DNA of 64,000 bases from Cinnamomum chago. Taxonomy: Eukaryota; Streptophyta; Magnoliopsida; Laurales; Lauraceae. The DNA is taken from assembly GCA_038049695.1 (NCBI GenBank), contig CP142456.1, forward strand, positions 76,407,422-76,471,421, in the 5' to 3' direction. Position numbers and translations under genes: made by a program. This document shows, in pieces, positions 6,111-43,475 of the stretch. A model generated the notes under the pieces. It was not told the DNA's origin. It did not search any database and saw nothing but the letters and a program-made list of their open reading frames with translations. Positions within the stretch are counted from its first letter, which is position 1. Each line of letters starts with the position of its first letter.

Positions 6111-6533
6111 GGAAAATTGAAGAGATAATTATAGAAGAGTTAGTGATAACCGGCCTTGATGATTTTTCTACATATATCTTTCAATGGATTTTTTTTATAT
6201 CTTGGGTCTTTTAAACCAAGATGTATAATTTTGCTATACATGCACAAGATTAAGGGAATAAGGTTTAATCTAATCTCTAAACAACCCATTGAGGCCTATG
6301 GGCAACCTGTGGGGTCTTTTGGACCTCACATTCCAACACAATTGCCATCAACCCAAAATTTGACATTTATTTAGATTTTATATTTGAATTTGTTCCTTGT
6401 CTGCGCGATACCTGTCTAAATAATTCTTTATTACTAAAGCTTATGGGTCAAGACAAGACAAGTACCTATTAAACTCATATTGACCATAAACTGAACTTTC
6501 CACCTGAGCAAGGAAACAAAGACTTTAACAAAT

Positions 6534-7183
6534 CTTAAATGCACAAATAAGAGAAAATGATATTTAACTAATTTCTTCATAAATAAATGAGGAAACTAGG
6601 GGGAAAAATCACACAGGACCCGTAGTCTTAAATGCACAATTAAGAGAAAATGATGTTTAACTAATTTTTTCATAAATAAATGAGGAAACTACGGGGAAAA
6701 ACCCATAGGACCCGTAGTCTTAAATGCACAAATAAGAGAAAATGATGTTAAACTAATTTCTTCATAAATAAATGAGGAAACTATAGGGAAAAACTACATA
6801 TATAGGACCGTAGTCTTAAATGCACAAATAAGAGAAAATGATGTTTAACTAATTTCTTCATAAATAAAAGAGGAAACTACGGGGAAAAACTACATATGAC
6901 CCGTAGTCTTAAATGCACAAATAAGAGAAAATGATGTTTAACTAATTTCTTCATAAAAAAATGAGGAAACTACGAGGAAAAACCACATAGGACCCGTAGT
7001 CTTAAATGCACAAATAAAAGAAAATGATATTTAACTATTTTCTTCATAAATAAATGAGAAAACTGCAGGAAAAAATCACATAAGATCCGTAGTCTTAAAT
7101 GCACAAATAAGAGAAAATGATATTTAACTAATTTCTTCATAAATAAATGAGGAAACTAGGGGGGAAACCCTATAGGACCCGTA
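6534..7183. repeat. 93-bp tandem repeat, 7 copies
   Basis: Repeat units start with CTTAAATGCACAAATAAG at about 6534, 6627, 6719, 6815, 6908, 7001 and 7093 (spacing 92-96 bp). Each unit contains AACTAATTTCTTCATAAATAAATG (given in part) and ends near GGACCCGTAG. Unit B has only three copies at 43197-43475. It is a non-coding minisatellite. Confidence 0.95.
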
Positions 7184-7905
7184 GCATTTATGAGGTCCTG
7201 TATAGAAAGAAGGGGTCCACTGGGTGCATTTTTTTTCTTCTTTTTGTAGTTTAGCGATATGGTTGATATCGACCATTCTGTAGTAGTTGCTCTCGGCTTG
7301 CAGAACTCAAATAGAAAGTGGATTTTTCTCTTTTGGTTCTATGAATGCAGAGGGACTCGTTGTTGCAGGGTGGCAGTGAGGGCAAGGGAGAACACTACTA
7401 CTGGTGCTGCTCTAGGAGCGATGTACGGTGTCAGGGGAGGCGGGGAGAGGGAGGATACGAATGAATGGAGGGCGGCAAACATGAGGTTGTTTCGTCGGAG
7501 GAGAAGGGAGGATTGCCATGAAGGGAGAGGAGGAGGGAGAAGATGGGAGGGGAGATGAAGGTGAGGTTGTAGGCGGAGACGAGGAAGAGGGTCTGTCCCT
7601 CGGAGAGAGAGGGGATGAGGGTCAGGGACCTGTAGAGCCAAGGAGAGTGAGAGGAGGTGAGGGCGGATGATCGACAAGTGGACCTACAAATTCAACGTTA
7701 TTTTCTTTTTTTATTTGTCATTTACCTATATTATTGATATCGACATTCCTGTCATTTTCAACAAATAAGACAGTTACATGTTGGTTGAAATCAGACTGAC
7801 ATAATGGTCGATATCGACCATTAGGGATGATCGATATCGACTAATCTGTCAGTCAGATTTTCTTTATCTTGCGACTGTCTTATTTGCTGAACACAACATA
7901 ATATA
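7184..7905. other. GC-rich island and hairpin between GATATC palindromes
   Basis: A purine-rich GC island at about 7380-7680 gives open frames on both strands (minus-strand 112-residue frame rich in Leu, Pro and Ser at 7339-7677). A related frame persists in unit B at 43627-43926. This may be captured or ancient coding sequence, but no family is recognised. It is followed by a foldback at about 7757-7905 whose arms contain AATAAGACAG and CTGACTGACA, with a perfect 22-bp palindrome centred on GATATC at 7802-7823. TCGATATCGA-type motifs recur at 7258-7275, 7735 and 7830. Confidence 0.45.
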
Positions 7906-14451: not shown

Positions 14452-16481
14452 ATCTCCATGTTAAGCCATTGGGAATCCAGATATAAATCAATCTGTTGAT
14501 ATTCTGTTCTTTGGTTGCAATTTGCCTTCCTTTCTTCCTGGGACAACGAAGCCCTAGATGGGAAAAAGGGTTTAGGGTTATCTCTCCCTCCCTTTCTCTT
14601 GGTTAGGGTTAGGGGTTTCTGCAATCTTCCTTCGTTACAGCAACAATACCCTCCAAAACTGCACCTAATCCTGTTCTGTATGTTTATGGTGGGTTTGGCC
14701 GGTGAGATCTATCTATTGAGTTTTTATTTTGCCTGGTTCTCTGGGATGCATTATCTTTTGGGGCTGGGCACTTAATGAATGGCAGATTCACTGGGTGAAA
14801 AGTAAACCTATGGGAAATTTATGATTAGCGTTGTTGCTGATTTAATCGGCCAAAAGATGTGGCTTTATTTTTTTTTTCTTCTTCTGGGTCTTGACTAATG
14901 AGTGATATGTTATTTGATTTTCAAGTGATGGTTTGAGAGTTGAGACTCGGTGGTAGTGTTATCACATGCTCTGGTCAGGCTGTTGTTAGTGCTAAACTTG
15001 TAACATGTTACATAACTTTTTTTTTGTGAGAGAAGATGTTGGGTCGTATGGTGGTCCGCGGGAGCTCACTTTATGGTGGTCCAAGGGTTTTTTTTAATAA
15101 AAAATAAAAAAAAAACTTTTTCCTTTCGTTTGTGGTGACATGTGAAGACAACTAATTGTTTTTCTTCAAACAACAATTCAAATATTTTATGGTATCTCTT
15201 TTATGGTTAAATAAAATAGTCCATTATTCTAAAAGGGCTAATTGAAACAAGATGTCACCAAAGTGACCTCTCTTGTGTAGATTGTTCATGAGGAATATTG
15301 GATGTTTGTGTGTGTGTAACTTTATGCGGGTCTTAGTCGGCCCAAAGGAAGGTTACTACTTGGCCGAATTACATACACACCTGTGGTGGTAAACATGTGA
15401 CGATTATAAGGTTTTACATGTGAATAATAAGTCAATCCAAAGATAGATTTATTATTTGACATGAATTATTGTCAATGTTTGATCACTACAAGAAGATGAC
15501 CATTTACAATTAATATTACTGTCCAAAGACTTGATATTAATGTTGTGCTAAGTACCTTGACATAAGACTTACCATTATTTGAATTTGTTGCTTCTGTATT
15601 TGGTTAATAATATGAGTATGTTTATCTGTTTGTTTTTATTTGTTCTCTTTACAGCTAGTGTTTCTACTATATCTGCTAATATCAACTCTATAACTGTACT
15701 TAATGGGACCAACTTTAAGGATTGGAAAGAGAACATAGAAATTGTTCTTGGCCGCATGGATCTAGACCTTGCACTACGGATTGAGCAACCCGCTTCTCTT
15801 ACGGATGCAAGTTCTCCTGATGACAAGAAGAACTTTGAGAAATGGGATCGCTCAAATCGCATGAGTCTTATAATCATCAAGCGCGGCATTCCAGAGGCAT
15901 TTAAGGGTGCGGTATTTGAAAAGCTAACCACAACCAAAGAATTCCTAGTCGAAATTGAAAAGCGTTTTCTGAAAAACGATAAGGCATAAACAAGCACGCT
16001 TTTGCAAAGCTTGATTTCTATGAAGTACAATGGCAAGGGGAACATACGGGAGTACATTATGGGAATGTCTCATATTGCTTGTAAACTTTAGGCACTGAAG
16101 CTTGAGCTGTCGGACGACTTGCTCGTGTATTTGGTATTAATATCACTTCCTGTACTATACAGTTAATTTAAGGTCAGTTACAACTATCAAAAGGAAAAAT
16201 GGACTCTTAATGAGGTCATTTCTGACTGTGTGCAAGAGGAAGAGAGATTGAAGCAAGACAGAACCGAAAGTGCTCATTTGGCTAGCACCTCTAAGGATAA
16301 GGGCAAAGATAAGGGCAAAAAGAGAAAGAAAAATGAAGCGCTAAGAGAAAAAAAAGCTGCTAAGGGTCCAACAGAAAAGAAACAACAGCCAGTAACTGAG
16401 GGTTGTTTCTTTTGCAACAAGCTTGGACATGTAAAGAAGGACTGTACCAAATATCACGCTTAACGTGTAAAGAAAGGTACA

Positions 16482-17399
16482 TGTAAGTGCAAAAAATATC
16501 ACTCACAGGAATAGGGGGTGCCTTTGAGGACTTATCCAAACAGTTGAAGAGAGTTATCCGCTTCAGGGAGGGTCTCAGATGATATGGAGCTGCTGGAAGC
16601 TTTAGGGAGAAGGATCAGACGCCTGCTGGACCTGAAGGGAGAGGAGAAGCATGGTCAGGGACCCTGGCTGGTGGCAGCGCAAGGCCCTCCGACGTCTAAG
16701 TTAGTGCTGGCACTGAACAAAGGGTGAAGTGAGGTGGAGAAGAAGAGAGAGCTCAGAGCAAGGGAGGTTCCTGCACTGTGTGTGAGCCTCCATGACATAC
16801 CTCGTTGAGTTTACCTCTTGCCTCTATATGTAGGGAGAGAAGTCCAATCGGAAGCTGCTTCTTTAGTGGAGGTAGGTGAAAAGTAGATGTCCCATCTGCC
16901 CATACCTCGATCTCTGGTGGATGTGACCGTTCGGCGCCCATCCTGTCTGTCAGTTCGTACTGCAGCGTGGCTGTCTTGTCATCTGGCACTGCTGCCTAGA
17001 TGGAGAACTTGGCCGAGGTGAAGTACTGGGCCGAGATGAGCTGTCTGGCCGAAGTGGAAGAGTCTGGCCGAGGTGGACTATCTGGCCGAGATGGGCCGAA
17101 GTGGAAGAGTCTGGCCGAGGTGGACTATCTGGCCGAGATGGAGCTGTCTGGCCGAGGTGGAAGAGTCAATCTGGCCGAGATGGAGCTGTCTGGCCGAAGT
17201 GGACTACTGGGCCGAGATGAGCTGCCTGGCCGAGGTGCCTGTCTGGCCGAAATGCCTTTTTCGAGGCCTAAACGATGGAATTAGGCCTAAAAACCAAAAG
17301 TCCATTACATAGTAATGGATCTTGAAGATCTCGCCGTTTCCTTTCCAGAATGGGGTTCTGTTCGCGATTCTGACTCCGGAACCCTAATTAGGGCGAGAT
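16482..17399 (-). repeat. Inverted LTR copy (L1) of the Gypsy element
   Basis: This is the reverse complement of the LTR 3' part. It begins TGTAAGTGC at the outer edge and is shortened at its U3 side. It meets L2 at a shared GGCGAGAT microhomology near 17392-17399. Mirror-image 78-94-residue frames here are LTR sequence, not genes. Confidence 0.88.
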
Positions 17400-18245
17400 C
17401 TTCAAGATCCATTACTATGCAATGGACTTTTGGTTTTTAGGCCTAATTCCATCGTTTAGGCCTCGAAAAAGGTACTTCGGCCAGACAGGCACCTCGGCCA
17501 GACAGTTCATCTCGGCCCAGTAGTCCACTTCGGCCAGACAGCTCCATCTCGGCCAGATTGACTCTTCCACCTCGGCCAGACAGCTCCATCTCGGCCAGAT
17601 AGTCCACCTCGGCCAGACTCTTCCACTTCGGCCCATCTCGGCCAGATAGTCCACCTCGGCCAGACTCTTCCACTTCGGCCAGACAGCTCATCTCGGCCCA
17701 GTACTTCACCTCGGCCAAGTTCTCCATCTAGGCAGCAGTGCCAGATGACAAGACAGCCACGCTGCAGTACGAACTGACAGACAGGATGGGCGCCGAACGG
17801 TCACATCCACCAGAGATCGAGGTATGGGCAGATGGGACATCTACTTTTCACCTACCTCCACTAAAGAAGCAGCTTCCGATTGGACTTCTCTCCCTACATA
17901 TAGAGGCAAGAGGTAAACTCAACGAGGTATGTCATGGAGGCTCACACACAGTGCAGGAACCTCCCTTGCTCTGAGCTCTCTCTTCTTCTCCACCTCACTT
18001 CACCCTTTGTTCAGTGCCAGCACTAACTTAGGCGTCGGAGGGCCTTGCGCTGCCACCAGCCAGGGTCCCTGACCATGGTTCTCCTCTCCCTTCAGGTCCA
18101 GCAGGCGTCTGATCCTTCTCCCTAAAGCTTCCAGCAGCTCCATATCATCTGAGACCCTCCCTGAAGCGGATAGCTCTCTCCAACTGTTTGGATAAGTCCT
18201 CAAAGGCACCCCTTATTCCTGTGAGTGATATTTTTTGCACTTACA
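17392..18245 (+). repeat. Direct LTR copy (L2), shortened at its 5' side
   Basis: It begins at GGCGAGATCTTC instead of the LTR start and ends in TTACA just before the primer site. It contains a GGCCGAGATGG/GGCCGAAGTGG minisatellite, as do L1 and L3. Confidence 0.88.
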
Positions 18246-18247
18246 AT

Positions 18248-18265
18248 TGGCGCCGTCTGTGGGAA
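18248..18265 (+). other. Primer-binding site of the Gypsy element
   Basis: TGGCGCCGTCTGTGGGAA follows the L2 end after two bases. This sequence is commonly found as the primer site in plant Gypsy elements of the Tat group. Confidence 0.8.
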
Positions 18266-18785
18266 ACGATACAAAAACGCCATGCTTCCGAGAGTTAAGA
18301 AGAAGGGCGGAGAATCATCAAAGGCCTTACCACCGCCTACACTTATGTTGCCAGAGAAGCCGTCAGTCCCTCGCCAGAGGCGGTCCCGAGCAAGATCTGG
18401 TCCAGCTCAACTGAAGCAGCCCCGGCCAGACGATCTTCAACTGGAGCCTCCCAGGCAAAATGAAACTCCAGTGCTATCCGGATCTCGTCAGTCCTATCAC
18501 CAGACTGACAGCGAAGATGACGATGCCGACTCTCTCCTCACGGCCATCAGGGCCCGAAACCGAGTTATCCGAGAGCAAGACGACTTGATTCGCCACCTCC
18601 AGCAGCAGCTACGAGAAAGGGCGACGACTCCAGTTTCGCCCCCTAGGCGCAACCGAACTGCGAGGCAGGAGATAAAGATGAAGTCACCAAGACAGAAGCA
18701 AGCGCAGAGACAATACCTTCTCCTTCAAAATTCAGGATTTTGGTTGCCTCCGGAAGGCACAGATGAAACACCAAGTTAGAGCAAT

Positions 18786-19129
18786 TCGGACAGCTCCAGC
18801 TCGGTCAGCACGAGTTCGGATAGCTCCAGTTCGGTTCCAACACCAACTCGGACAGCTCCAGCTCGGTCAGCACGAGTTCGGATAGCTCCAGTTCGGTTCC
18901 AACACCAACTCGGACAACTCCAGCTCAGTCAGCACGAGTTCGGATAGCTCCAATTCGGTTCCAACACCAACTCGGACAGCTCTAGCTCGGACAGCTCCAG
19001 CTCGGTCAGCACGAGTTCGGATAGCTCCAGTTCGGTTCCAACACCAACTCGGACAGCTCCAGCTCGGTCAGCACGAGTTCGGATAGCTCCAGTTCGGTTT
19101 CAACACCAGCTCGGACAGCTCCAGCTCGG
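18786..19129 (+). repeat. Minisatellite 1 of the Gypsy element
   Basis: Roughly 69-bp repeats alternate GCTCGGTCAGCACGAG and TCCAGTTCGGTTCCAACACC blocks, about five copies with a partial extra block. Confidence 0.85.
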
Positions 19130-19255
19130 TCAACACGATGAGATCGCCTTCGGGTCGGTTTTTACACCACCCAGGCGTGAAGCCTTCGGGCCACTGATGA
19201 GATCGCCTTCGGGTCGGTTTTTACACCACCCAGGCGTGAAGCCTTCGGGCCACTG
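19130..19255 (+). repeat. Minisatellite 2 of the Gypsy element
   Basis: Two copies of a roughly 62-bp unit contain GCCTTCGGGTCGGTTTTTAC and CACCCAGGCGTGAAGCC. Confidence 0.8.
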
Positions 19256-19830
19256 ATGAAATCGTCTAAGGCTGGCACCCAGCCACCTAGACGTGAAGCC
19301 GAAACGACCAATGATGAAATCGTTTAAGGCTGGCACCCAGCCACCTAGACGTGAAGCCGAAACGGCCAATGATGAAATCGTCTAAGGCTGGCACCCAGCC
19401 ACCTAGACGTGAAGCCGAAACGGCCAATGATGAAATCGTCTAGGGTTGGCACCCAGCCACCTAGACGTGAAGCCGAAACGGCCAATGATGAAATCGTCTA
19501 GGGTTGGCACCCAGCCACCTAGACGTGAAGCCGAAACGGCCAATGATGAAATCGTCTAAGGCTGGCACCCAGCCACCTAGACGTGAAGCCGAAACGGCCA
19601 ATGATGAAATCGTCTAAGGCTGGCACCCAGCCACCTAGACGTGAAGCCGAAACGGCCAATGATGAAATCGTCTAAGGTTGGCACCCAGCCACCTAGACGT
19701 GAAGCCGAAACAGTCAATGATGAAATCGTCTAGGGTTGGCACCCAGCCACCTAGACGTGAAGCCGAAACGGTCAATGATGAAATTGTCTAGGGTTGGCAC
19801 CCAGCCACCTAGACGTGAAACCGAAATGGC
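19256..19830 (+). repeat. Minisatellite 3 of the Gypsy element
   Basis: About ten copies of a 58-60-bp unit contain GGCACCCAGCCACCTAGACG and TGAAGCCGAAACGG. Its unit is related to that of minisatellite 2, suggesting a common origin. Confidence 0.9.
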
Positions 19831-20093
19831 ATAATTCCCGGTTGGGCATTACGGCTTTGCTGCCGAGATGAGTGAGCTCAGCAAGGAATTAGTGCCAGTG
19901 GCATGCCCAAATCTAGTCGGTCTACCTCTACCGAACTCGCACACTCGGAGCAAAAAGTACAGAAAGATAGCATTGAATCACAGGCATACAGGTTCGAAAA
20001 AGAAGCTGATACGAAACAAATTCAGAAACCCCTCTCATCTTAGCTTCCGACTTCAAAGAGTTAGGACTCAAGAAGTCAGAAGCTGGGGGGCTT

Positions 20094-21089
20094 TGTGTGG
20101 GGATAATTTCACAATACCAAAACCGTACTCAGCTCCGGTAAGAGTACCAGTTCGGCACCTCGGCTCAACCCATCTCGCCCTAATTAGGGTTCCGGAGTCA
20201 GAATCGCGAACAGAACCCCATTCTGGAAAGGAAACGGCGAGATCTTCAAGATCCATTACTATGTAATGGACTTTTGGTTTTTAGGCCTAATTCCATCGTT
20301 TAGGCCTCGAAAAAGGCATTTCGGCCAGACAGGCACCTCAGCCAGGCAGCTCATCTCGGCCCAGTAGTCCACTTCGGCCAGACAGCTCCATCTCGGCCAG
20401 ATTGACTCTTCCACCTCGGCCAGACAGCTCCATCTCGGCCAGATAGTCCACCTCGGCCAGACTCTTCCACTTCGGCCCATCTCGGCCAGATAGTCCACCT
20501 CGGCCAGACTCTTCCACTTCGGCCAGACAGCTCATCTCGGCCCAGTACTTCACCTCGGCCAAGTTCTCCATCTAGGCAGCAGTGCCAGATGACAAGACAG
20601 CCACGCTGCAGTACGAACTGACAGACAGGATGGGCGCCGAACGGTCACATCCACCAGAGATCGAGGTATGGGCAGATGGGACATCTACTTTTCACCTACC
20701 TCCACTAAAGAAGCAGCTTCCGATTGGACTTCTCTCCCTACATATAGAGGCAAGAGGTAAACTCAACGAGGTATGTCATGGAGGCTCACACACAGTGCAG
20801 GAACCTCCCTTGCTCTGAGCTCTCTCTTCTTCTCCACCTCACTTCACCCTTTGTTCAGTGCCAGCACTAACTTAGACGTCGGAGGGCCTTGCGCTGCCAC
20901 CAGCCAGGGTCCCTGACCATGCTTCTCCTCTCCCTTCAGGTCCAGCAGGCGTCTGATCCTTCTCCCTAAAGCTTCCAGCAGCTCCATATCATCTGAGACC
21001 CTCCCTGAAGCGGATAACTCTCTCCAACTGTTTGGATAAGTCCTCAAAGGCACCCCCTATTCCTGTGAGTGATATTTTTTTCACTTACA
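20094..21089 (+). repeat. 3' LTR (L3) of the Gypsy element, full length
   Basis: It starts TGTGTGGGGATAATTTC after the polypurine run and ends CACTTACA. At about 996 bp it is the only complete LTR copy. Confidence 0.85.
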
Positions 21090-24000
21090 GTACATTTCTT
21101 GCTTTGGTCTGTTCTGGGGTAAATTTAGCTTCAGGACCTAGAAACACGTGGTGGTTAGATTCTTGTGCTACTACTCACATTAGTGTTTCTATGTAGGGTT
21201 GCCTGAGCTACCAAAAGTCAAGTGATGCTGAAAGACACATCTTTGTGGGTGATGGAAAGTCGGTAGAAGTAGGGAAAGTCGGTAGAAGTAGAGGCAATAG
21301 GGCATTTTAGGTTGTTATTAAAAACTGGTTATTATTTGAAATTATTAGATACTTTTATTGTACCGTCTTTTCGACGGAATTTGGTTTCAGTTTCTTTATT
21401 GGACAAGTTTGGTTAGTTTTGTTCATTTGGAAACAATCAATTTAGTTTATCCATAAATTTAAATGTTGTTGTAACTGGTTCTCTTGTGTATGTGACAACT
21501 TATATTTACTTGATACAATTGTTTCTTATAATGAATCCTTGCATGTGGAATCACGAGGTATTAAACACAAACTGAATAAAGAAAACTCGGCTAAATTATG
21601 GCACAAACGCTTAGGTCACATCTCTATGTCTAGAGTTGAGCGACTTGTGTCTGATGGCATTTTAGATTCCCTTGACTTTACAGACTTTGATGTTTGTATT
21701 GCTCGCATCAAGGGAAAACAGACTAAAATGAAGAAATTAGGTGCAAATAGAACTACTGACGTCTTAGAATTGATACACACAAATATCTGTGGACCATTCC
21801 TTATGGCTTCCTGGAATGACCAACAGTATTTCATATCATTCATAGACAATCGCTATGGATACCTATTTCTCATTCATGAGTAATCACAGTCTTTGGACGT
21901 GTTCAAAACATTTAAAGCTGAAGTTGAGAACCAACTCAACAAAAGAATAAAGAGTGTCAGGTCTGACCGTGGTGGTGAATACTACGGTAGATATGACGGT
22001 TCCGGTGAATAACGTCCAGGACCGTTTGCTAAATTCATAGAGGAATGTGGAATTGTCCCACAGTACACCATGCCAGGGTCACCTAGCATGAATGATGTAG
22101 CTGAAAGACGAAACTGGACTCTTAAGGATATGGTAAGGAGTATGATTAGTCATTCCACTTTACCAAAGTCACTCTGGGGAGAAGCACTCAAAACAGCAGC
22201 TTATATTCTGAATAGAGTGCCAACTAAAGCAGCTGCAAAAACACCTTATGAGCTTTGGACAGGCAGAAAACTTAGTCTAAAACATATTCACATTTGGGGA
22301 TATCCTGCTGAGGCAAGGCTTTACAGGCCACATGAAAAGAAATTGGACTCCAAAACTGTGAGCAGCTACTTCATTGGCTACTCTGAACGATCTATAAGTT
22401 TTATGATCCCACACTTAGGTCAATTTTTGAGACCGGAACTGCAACATTTTTTTAGGATGTTGAGTTTGGGGGGAGAAATAAGGTTAGAGACAATGTCTTT
22501 TAGGAAGAATCGGTTACGATTCCCACTATTGCTTTTGACAATGTGCAGGTTTCTATACCTGTCATTAATCAAGAAGCGAATCCGGATCCTCAACAAGACA
22601 ATGTTGATCAACCCCCCATTCAAGATGAGGAACAAACTCAACAACCTCAAGAACCAGTGCCATTAAGGCGATCCACTAGAGAGAGGAGACATGTTATTCC
22701 GGACGATTTTTTCGTATTTCTCCAAGAACATGAGGAAGAAATTGGAATGGTGGAAAATGGTCCAATCAACTTCCATCAAGCCATGCAAGGTTCTAACTCT
22801 CAAAAGTGGATTGATGCCATGAATGAGGAGTATAAGTCTATGCAAGACAATAAGGTTTGAGAACTTGTCCCATTACCAGAAGGTGTGAAGCCCATTGGTT
22901 ACAAATGGATTTTTAAAACCAAAAGGGATTCAAATGGTAATGTGGAGAGGTATAAGGCTTGTCTTGTAGTTAAAGGTTTTACCCAAAAGGAAGGGATTGA
23001 CGTTAAAGAAACTTTCTCTCCGGTTTCATCGAAAGACTCTTTTAGGACAATCATGACACTAGTTGCACATTTTGATCTTGAGCTTCGTCAAATGGATGTC
23101 AAAACAACATTTCTCAATGGTGACATTGACGAAACAATTTATATGGTGCAGCCAGAAAACTTTGAGTCGGGAGACCCAAAGAATATGATCTGTAAATTGA
23201 CAAAGTCCATCTATGGACTCAAGCAAGCTTCTCGTCAGTGGTATCACAAGTTTTATCAAGTGATTATATCGTTTGGTTTTGAGACAAACGCTGTTGATAA
23301 TTGTGTGTATCACAAATTCAGTGGGAGTAAGCACATATTCCTAGTTTTGTATGTCGATGACATATTGCTTGCCACAAATGATATAGGCATGTTGCATGAA
23401 ACCAAGAAATTTCTGTTAAAGAATTTTGAGATGAAAGATCTTGGTGACGCCTCTTTTGTATTAGGGATCCTGATACAACGAGATCGCTCTCGGGGAATCT
23501 TTGGATTATCACAAAGAAGCTATATTGATAAAGTGCTCAAAAGGTTTGGCATCAGCACAGTAAACTAGGTGACACCCCTGTCTTTAAGGGAGACAAGTTC
23601 AGTCTCAATCAATGCCCTAAAACTAACCTTGAAGTTAAGGAAATGCAGAAGATTCCTTATGCATCAGCTGTAGGGAGTCTAATGTATGCTATGGTGTGTA
23701 CGCGTTCGGATATTGCGTACATTGTTGGTATGTTAGGTAGATATTTAAGTAATCCAGGGATGGATCATTGGAAAGCAGCCAAGCGGGTTATGAGGTATTT
23801 ACAGAAAACAAAAGATCACATGCTCACATATTACCACCCAAGGTCTTTCATGAGCACACTGCTCATATGGGTGTTATTTTGTGTGAGGATATCACATTAG
23901 AGTGGGAGTTTGTATCATTTTATGTTTTATTGCTTTGTATTTGATTTTGAACACATTTATGCATTTATGTATTTGAATATTATTCTAATAAGAAATACAG

Positions 24001-42730: not shown

Positions 42731-43196
42731 GAAAAATTGAAGAGAGAATTATAGAAGAGTTAGAGATAACCGGCCTTGATGATTTTTCTACATATTTCTT
42801 TCAATGGATTTTTTTTTTATTTTTTATATCCTGAGTCTTTTAAACCAAGATGGATAATTTTGATATACATGCACAAGATTAAGGGGATAAGGTTTAATCT
42901 TATCTCTAAACAACCCATTGAGGCCTATGGGCAACCGTGTGGGGTCTTTTGGACCTCACATTCCGACACAATTGCCATCAACCCAAAATTTGACATTTAT
43001 TTAGATTTTATATTTGAATTTGTTCCTTGTCTTCGCGATACCTATCTAACTGTCTAAATAATTCTTTATTACTAAAGCTTATGGGTCTTTCCACCCGTCA
43101 AGCAAGCAAGTCAAGACGAGACAAGTGCCAATTAAACTCATATAGACCATAAACTGAACTTTCCACCTGAACGAGGAAACAAAGACTTTAACAAAT

Positions 43197-43475
43197 CTTA
43201 AATGCACAAATAAGAGAAAATGATATTTAACTAATTTCTTCATAAATAAATGAGGAAACTAGGGGGAAAAACCACATAGGACCGTAGTCTTAAATGCACA
43301 AATAAGAGAAAATGATGTTTAACTAATTTCTTCATAAATAAATGAGGAAATTAGAGGGAAAAACCACATAAGACCTGTAGTCTTAAATGCACAAATAAGA
43401 GAAAATGATATTTAACTAATTTCTTCATAAATAAATGAGGAACTAGGGGGAAAAACCCTATAGGACCCTTAGCAT
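43197..43475. repeat. 93-bp tandem repeat, 3 copies
   Basis: Units start at about 43197, 43289 and 43382 and match the seven-copy array at 6534-7183. Confidence 0.93.

Follow-up and report, generated by a model that had tools for sequence, protein, structure and literature searches.

A long terminal repeat insertion with two U5 outer ends in Cinnamomum chago and its possible origin in aberrant reverse transcription

Complex insertions of long terminal repeat (LTR) retrotransposons have been attributed to abnormal template switching among RNAs packaged together (Sabot & Schulman 2007, PMC1950507). The minus-strand strong-stop DNA of human immunodeficiency virus 1 (HIV-1) is described as self-priming (PMC4668388, citing Guo et al. 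1997 among others), LTR-mediated retroposition of host mRNA has been reviewed with Bs1 and the cases of Tan et al. 2016 (PMC5408686), and DIRS-1 type elements are described as having a tyrosine recombinase and inverted LTRs (PMC5633606). Here, a 4,608-bp LTR element was analysed at positions 16482-21089 of a 64,000-nt stretch of the Cinnamomum chago genome (assembly GCA_038049695.1, contig CP142456.1, positions 76,407,422 to 76,471,421 of the forward strand). The whole stretch is referred to as the window. The element carries an extra, inverted LTR, and both of its outer ends are U5 rather than one U3 and one U5.

The order inverted LTR (L1), direct LTR (L2), primer binding site (PBS), internal region, and direct LTR (L3), which had been proposed in a first-pass annotation of the window, was confirmed by LTR alignments (Table 1). 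The complete LTR was taken as 996 nt, with TGTGTGGGGA at the start and ACTTACA at the end, because many genome copies align to L3 over positions 1-996. L1 and L3 differ at 3 of 918 paired nt, and L1 and L2 at 10 of 854. Two U5 outer ends had also been claimed, and they are present, but the letters given for the right end were wrong: L3 carries one substitution, at 21081, and the end reads TCACTTACA instead of GCACTTACA.

The whole unit is enclosed by a target-site duplication, GTACA, at 16477-16481 and 21090-21094, that matches perfectly, as first annotated; the chance of a 5-bp duplication at random is about 1 in 1000. The genome searched was 1.06 Gb in 14 contigs, with the window on contig 6 (C6). 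For the empty-site search, the two 300-base flanks were joined with one GTACA, and 40 of 152 candidates were scored. Matches crossed the joint in 38 of the 40, the other two being the window's own halves, and the three alignments inspected ran through the joint without a break and with GTACA once, two 18-19-base gaps lying elsewhere. Because the duplication is perfect, host sequence lies on both sides, and the empty sites are uninterrupted, one integration event placed the unit with its two U5 outer ends. The same three lines of evidence support the earlier proposal that a rearranged, partly palindromic complementary DNA (cDNA) was itself integrated. The left host flank codes for a CCHC zinc knuckle, and the right flank presumably corresponds to the start of a copia protease, judged by its motif; a 22-aa piece of it had no Pfam match. 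With a substitution rate of 1.3e-8 per site per year, the L1-L3 divergence gives an insertion age of about 0.13 million years if the two were identical at birth, and the insertion is older than that if they were homogenised later.

On balance, and with moderate confidence, we favour an origin of the window element from an aberrant cDNA carrying a U5 at each end, produced by minus-strand snap-back or by sister-strand priming. A tRNA-primed minus strand would copy U5-R, then U3, and stop before passing the U3 start. Its 3' end, lying at an 8-nt inverted repeat, would pair with the complementary 8 nt, either those of its own strand (snap-back) or those of a sister minus strand sharing the particle. 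Extension from the paired end would yield a plus-sense copy of the LTR and PBS, bypassing the normal polypurine primer. The PBS copy would transfer to a full minus strand, and its extension would cover the internal region and the 3' LTR. Synthesis of the opposite strand would leave a linear molecule ending in U5 on either side, which integrase would insert with the usual 5-bp duplication. We infer the order of these strand events, the choice between own and sister strand, and that the window join preceded integration.

The L1-L2 join carries an 8-bp microhomology, GGCGAGAT, which had been correctly located in the first pass. For random break points in the window LTR, a microhomology of at least 8 bp has a probability of 8.5e-5. 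The LTR contains an inverted repeat (LTR positions 79-86 and 143-150), one arm of which is the 8 junction bases, and the minus-strand hairpin closed by the window's two arms has a 56-nt loop. About 70 bp of unpaired sequence had been reported between the arms, which overstates the loop; 72 nt is reached only when both 8-bp hairpin arms are counted. The hairpins of the window and of a second copy on contig 8 (C8) are predicted to lie at about -12 kcal/mol, with every one of the 8 stem pairs formed. With up to two mismatches allowed, the 26-base junction string occurs at this one place in the genome.

The genome was then screened for outward-facing LTR ends. The screen used exact ends only, with 100 of 332 places listed for the main U5 pattern, and 52 exact U5 ends (36 + 10 + 6) were not followed by ATT, with which the PBS region begins. 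Listed members of arrays on C5 (61.99-62.04 Mb) and C8 (24.64-24.70 Mb) that enter a PBS were omitted from pairing; they cannot pair mutually because all are on one strand within each array. Among the matches listed, opposite U5 ends facing outward less than 12 kb apart were found at four loci, on C5, C6 (the window), C7, and C8. Perfect 5-bp duplications were present at three of these (C5 GTACG, C6 GTACA, and C8 ATAAT), so that the first-pass idea of searching the genome for further two-U5 copies in perfect 5-bp duplications was borne out on C5 and C8. Roughly, and again among the matches listed, the three U5/U5 insertions compare with at most 51 insertions with such ends, a total inflated by clusters. 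In all three copies, the extra LTR extends further towards U3 than the inner LTR, which is a requirement of snap-back; three cases make this no more than suggestive. No outward pair was found among 52 places with the U3-end pattern, which also missed a copy on C2 described below (its left flank ends in T), or among 23 further ends from two U5 variants of related LTRs.

Eleven ordinary loci were tried as controls. A perfect 5-bp duplication was found at seven (L045, L049, L050, L052, L053, L055, and L057), all with one U3 and one U5 end; three of these, L052, L053, and L055, are sister copies with ordinary direct LTRs. At L046, the duplication matches at 4/5 bases. No match was found at L056, where a second LTR start is located 28 bases upstream, and L048 and L058, being cut from LTR chains, show no outer boundary. 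Ordinary copies showed 1/927, 8/932, and 11/846 differences between their LTRs. The same LTR also occurs in long, satellite-like head-to-tail arrays with regular spacing, one at C5:61993017-62040173 with a spacing of about 3.0-3.9 kb and one at C8:24640701-24700154 with a spacing of about 1.9-2.6 kb among the matches listed. Shorter LTR chains were seen on C3 (71.02 Mb) and C12 (64.55 Mb, loci L047/L048).

The C5 copy (C5:82118066-82122398) has two U5 outer ends inside its perfect GTACG duplication. Its inner LTR is cut at LTR position 54 and its extra LTR is complete, and the two are separated by a centre of 503 nt (L041:3728-4230, corresponding to C5:82121027-82121529). This centre matches the gene at C6:5543805-5544597 exon by exon, with three introns with GT-AG borders absent; the first 11 nt of exon 4 adjoin the exact U3 start, and the peptide encoded by the centre gave Pfam PLATZ and B-box matches. 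Because the introns are missing from this fragment of a PLATZ-type transcription factor mRNA, the C5 centre must have passed through an RNA intermediate, and the spliced mRNA therefore places the C5 rearrangement in reverse transcription. The sense strand of the gene reads towards the extra LTR; the minus strand of the extra LTR therefore continues as an antisense copy of the mRNA, which is the orientation expected if a minus strand jumped from U3 onto a host mRNA and then turned back.

The LTRs of the C5 copy also differ in their relatedness. Inner and extra LTRs differ at 3/816 sites and inner and 3' LTRs at 36/816, with 11 alleles common to the inner and extra LTRs and 9 private to the 3' LTR, all absent from all other aligned copies. 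The captured mRNA differs from the gene at 5/503 sites, all in exon 1, or at 6 counting a base at the exon 2/3 border. The comparison of LTR and mRNA divergence gave a Fisher p of 0.0003 (5 sites) or 0.001 (6 sites), for an mRNA that is mostly coding and whose clock may run slow. Since the captured mRNA has so few differences, the 4.4% between the inner and 3' LTRs is too high for the insertion age. The 3' LTR probably differed from the start, and the extra LTR is a plausible template for the inner one. The turn-round at the hairpin stem would have used the own strand in C5 and a sister strand in the window.

The C8 copy (C8:7035054-7037779) has two U5 outer ends inside its perfect ATAAT duplication. 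Its 3' LTR is complete, and its inner and extra LTRs, consisting of the last 95 nt and the last 184 nt, respectively, meet at AGGGTCCC, an 8-bp microhomology with a random probability of 1.1e-4. In the minus strand, this microhomology closes a hairpin as its stem, around a loop of 81 nt. The breaks are about 730 and 820 nt into the 913-nt LTR, which is easier to reach for a short nascent strand than for trimmed ends of a finished cDNA.

Some observations weigh against a snap-back or sister-strand origin, among them the grouping of the window LTRs. Among 12 variable sites, L1 and L3 agree against L2 at 9, L1 and L2 against L3 at 2, and L2 and L3 against L1 at 1 (star-tree p about 0.012). When 35 other LTRs, several of them gapped at these columns, were used to give the majority state, 5 of the 9 sites splitting off L2 were derived in L1 and L3, and 4 were derived in L2. 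L1 groups with L3 and not with the inner L2, whereas simple own-strand snap-back predicts that L1 equals L2. Sister-strand priming, or later gene conversion between L1 and L3, would be needed; either L2 would have come from another template, or L1 and L3 would have been homogenised later. Three LTRs identical at birth would give derived changes of 6 (L1), 4 (L2), and 7 (L3), which is clock-like. Pure own-strand snap-back was considered for the window copy and is weakened by the L1-L3 grouping. The 8-bp microhomology also fits microhomology-mediated end-joining, and at the other end of the C5 mRNA, where the turn-round would lie, only 3 bases (TGG) are common to the gene and the LTR. At C8, the inner and extra LTRs differ at 4/93 sites, 3 of them private to the inner LTR and none at which either one sides with the 3' LTR against the other, a pattern that neither supports nor excludes copying of the inner LTR from the extra one. 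Finally, a copy on C2 (C2:27588256-27591557; L043:757-4058) has two U3 outer ends, an inverted 3' LTR, and a GTGAT/CTGAT duplication (4/5), with 19/943 differences between its two LTRs. Its junction, in which an apparently unprocessed U5 end (ACA plus ATT) is joined to the polypurine-tract (PPT) end, looks like DNA end-joining and unlike snap-back.

The remaining outward pair, on C7 (C7:52999726-53005588; L040 with L060), consists of two chimeric elements that stand head-to-head and have swapped LTR types: LTR B, internal A, and LTR A in one and a piece of LTR A, another internal region, and LTR B in the other. The U3 junction keeps up to three PPT-side bases, and the locus looks like a reciprocal exchange at the PBS. 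It was dropped as a fourth U5/U5 case, as the right LTR A piece enters a PBS and the outermost ends have no matching duplication (GGAAT versus ATGTG). When LTR B of C7 was tried as a control family, the genome pattern search found that one place only. End-joining is favoured for the C2 and C7 loci, and both routes may operate.

The C2 and C7 loci bear on the main alternative explanation of the window element, which we consider possible but rather unlikely, namely that integrase paired the U5 ends of two co-packaged cDNAs, one near full length and one partial, at one target site, and that microhomology-mediated end-joining then linked their incomplete U3 sides, either ahead of integration or after it. 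The C2 junction resembles a joined unprocessed U5 end, the C7 head-to-head chimeras have exchanged LTRs and keep PPT-side bases, L2 differs from L1 and L3 as though it came from another template, and the joins in the window and C8 have 8-bp microhomologies. However, joining of two cDNAs would require trimming of about 730 and 820 nt of LTR at the C8 ends, and it does not predict an extra LTR that is longer towards U3, as found in 3/3 U5/U5 copies. The spliced mRNA also shows that the extra arm of C5 was extended by template switching.

Rearrangement after integration, with the 5' LTR of a normal provirus later inverted or replaced by recombination, is improbable. Inverted LTR copies recombine in plant genomes generally, but a normal provirus has U3 at the left duplication, whereas here an intact U5 abuts GTACA exactly, as U5 likewise adjoins the duplications at C5 and C8, and other copies of the host element are continuous across the site. 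Post-integration inversion was rejected because of the complete U5 at the left duplication and the uninterrupted host-element copies. An assembly or library artefact that made a false palindrome is, if anything, still less probable; long near-perfect palindromes are a known type of artefact, but such a palindrome would be expected to run on into internal sequence at its outer end, whereas this one ends at U5, the duplication, and host DNA, and the same form occurs at three loci with different duplications and break points. A DIRS-like element with natural inverted terminal repeats would account for the inverted LTR-like ends but can be dismissed almost entirely, given that DIRS elements are not known to make a target-site duplication and this one has a 5-bp duplication, a PBS, and a PPT, with a longest internal frame of 184 aa and sister copies (L052, L053, and L055) whose ordinary direct LTRs lie in perfect duplications.

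The features of the element are listed in Table 1. Its 5-bp duplication and its PBS and PPT are laid out as in an integrase-type LTR retrotransposon, but its pair of U5 outer ends is not. No pol-sized frame was found; 5 frames of 62-184 aa overlap 18200-20100, and the 165 aa from the ATG of the longest internal frame (184 aa), the sole frame submitted, had no match in Pfam. The window element is non-autonomous and LARD/TRIM-like, with LTRs, PBS, and PPT but without gag-pol coding capacity. The term gypsy-type is the label of the first-pass annotation only: the Ty3/gypsy superfamily is recognised by a pol in which integrase follows RNase H, the element has no pol frame, and no autonomous partner was found. 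A tRNA scan of the 64-kb window found no tRNA, and a plasmid collection searched with L2 gave no match. Elsewhere in the window, two arrays of a near-identical 92-93-nt tandem unit were found about 36 kb apart, at 6533-7184 and 43196-43467.

Table 1. Features of the U5/U5 element and its target site, in window positions
Feature	Position	Strand	Remark
Left target-site duplication GTACA	16477..16481		Single GTACA in 3 inspected empty sites
L1, extra inverted LTR, outer end U5	16482..17399	-	Without first 78 nt of U3
Left 8-bp hairpin arm ATCTCGCC	17328..17335		Stem is the junction microhomology
56-nt loop between L1 and L2 arms	17336..17391		Single copy, part of L1
8-bp microhomology GGCGAGAT at L1-L2 join	17392..17399
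L2, inner direct LTR	17392..18245	+	Without first 142 nt of U3
Candidate PBS TGGCGCCGTCTGTGGGAA	18248..18265	+	2 bases past L2; same motif after LTR in sister copies
Short open frame, 165 aa, internal region	18282..18779	+	No Pfam match
62-nt tandem repeats, internal region	18782..19138	+
58/59-nt tandem repeats, internal region	19137..19830	+
PPT AGCTGGGGGGCTT ahead of L3	20081..20093	+	Same in sister copies
L3, complete 996-nt 3' LTR, outer end U5	20094..21089	+
Right target-site duplication GTACA	21090..21094

If the snap-back or sister-strand reading is true, the U5/U5 copies would be genomic records of minus-strand self-priming, an integrase in plant cells would use two identical LTR ends, and failed strand transfers would be rescued into the genome. 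Such copies would tie together aberrant reverse transcription, the capture of host mRNA, and the origin of long palindromes. Double-stranded RNA can arise from long palindromes, and by analogy with Mu killer in maize, such loci could silence their own family. We suggest, tentatively, that this LTR family has a recurrent snap-back route at LTR hairpins that bypasses the PPT, by which something like one in twenty insertions would be U5/U5 palindromes, some with a central host mRNA, and that the long hairpin-forming loci so produced could seed silencing.

In the open-licence literature, searched by titles and the starts of abstracts and partly on neighbouring topics, no U5/U5 or U3/U3 LTR insertion was found. 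The separate steps of template switching, self-priming, and mRNA capture are already known, and it is the integrated U5/U5 product that was not found described. DIRS-1 type elements (PMC5633606, in the part consulted) share the inverted LTR, and the window element differs from them in its 5-bp duplication and its PBS/PPT layout. The complexes of Sabot & Schulman (PMC1950507) are alike in their single integration, 5-bp duplication, and extra LTR, and the outermost LTRs of the window are the most alike (3/918), as in that class. In their four cases, two cores share a third LTR that lies internally, whereas the window element has one core and a third LTR that is inverted and terminal, which places it outside that class; neither an inverted LTR nor U5/U5 or U3/U3 ends are described in the text of PMC1950507. 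HIV-1 self-priming, in which minus-strand DNA folds at a hairpin and primes its own plus-sense copy, is the step that would have occurred here; the passage in PMC4668388 presents it as a source of aberrant cDNA and does not describe an integrated provirus. Like the cases in the passages of PMC5408686 on host mRNA, where no inverted LTRs are described, the C5 copy holds a host mRNA captured by template switching inside retrotransposon cDNA, and in C5 this mRNA sits at the centre of an inverted U5/U5 element.

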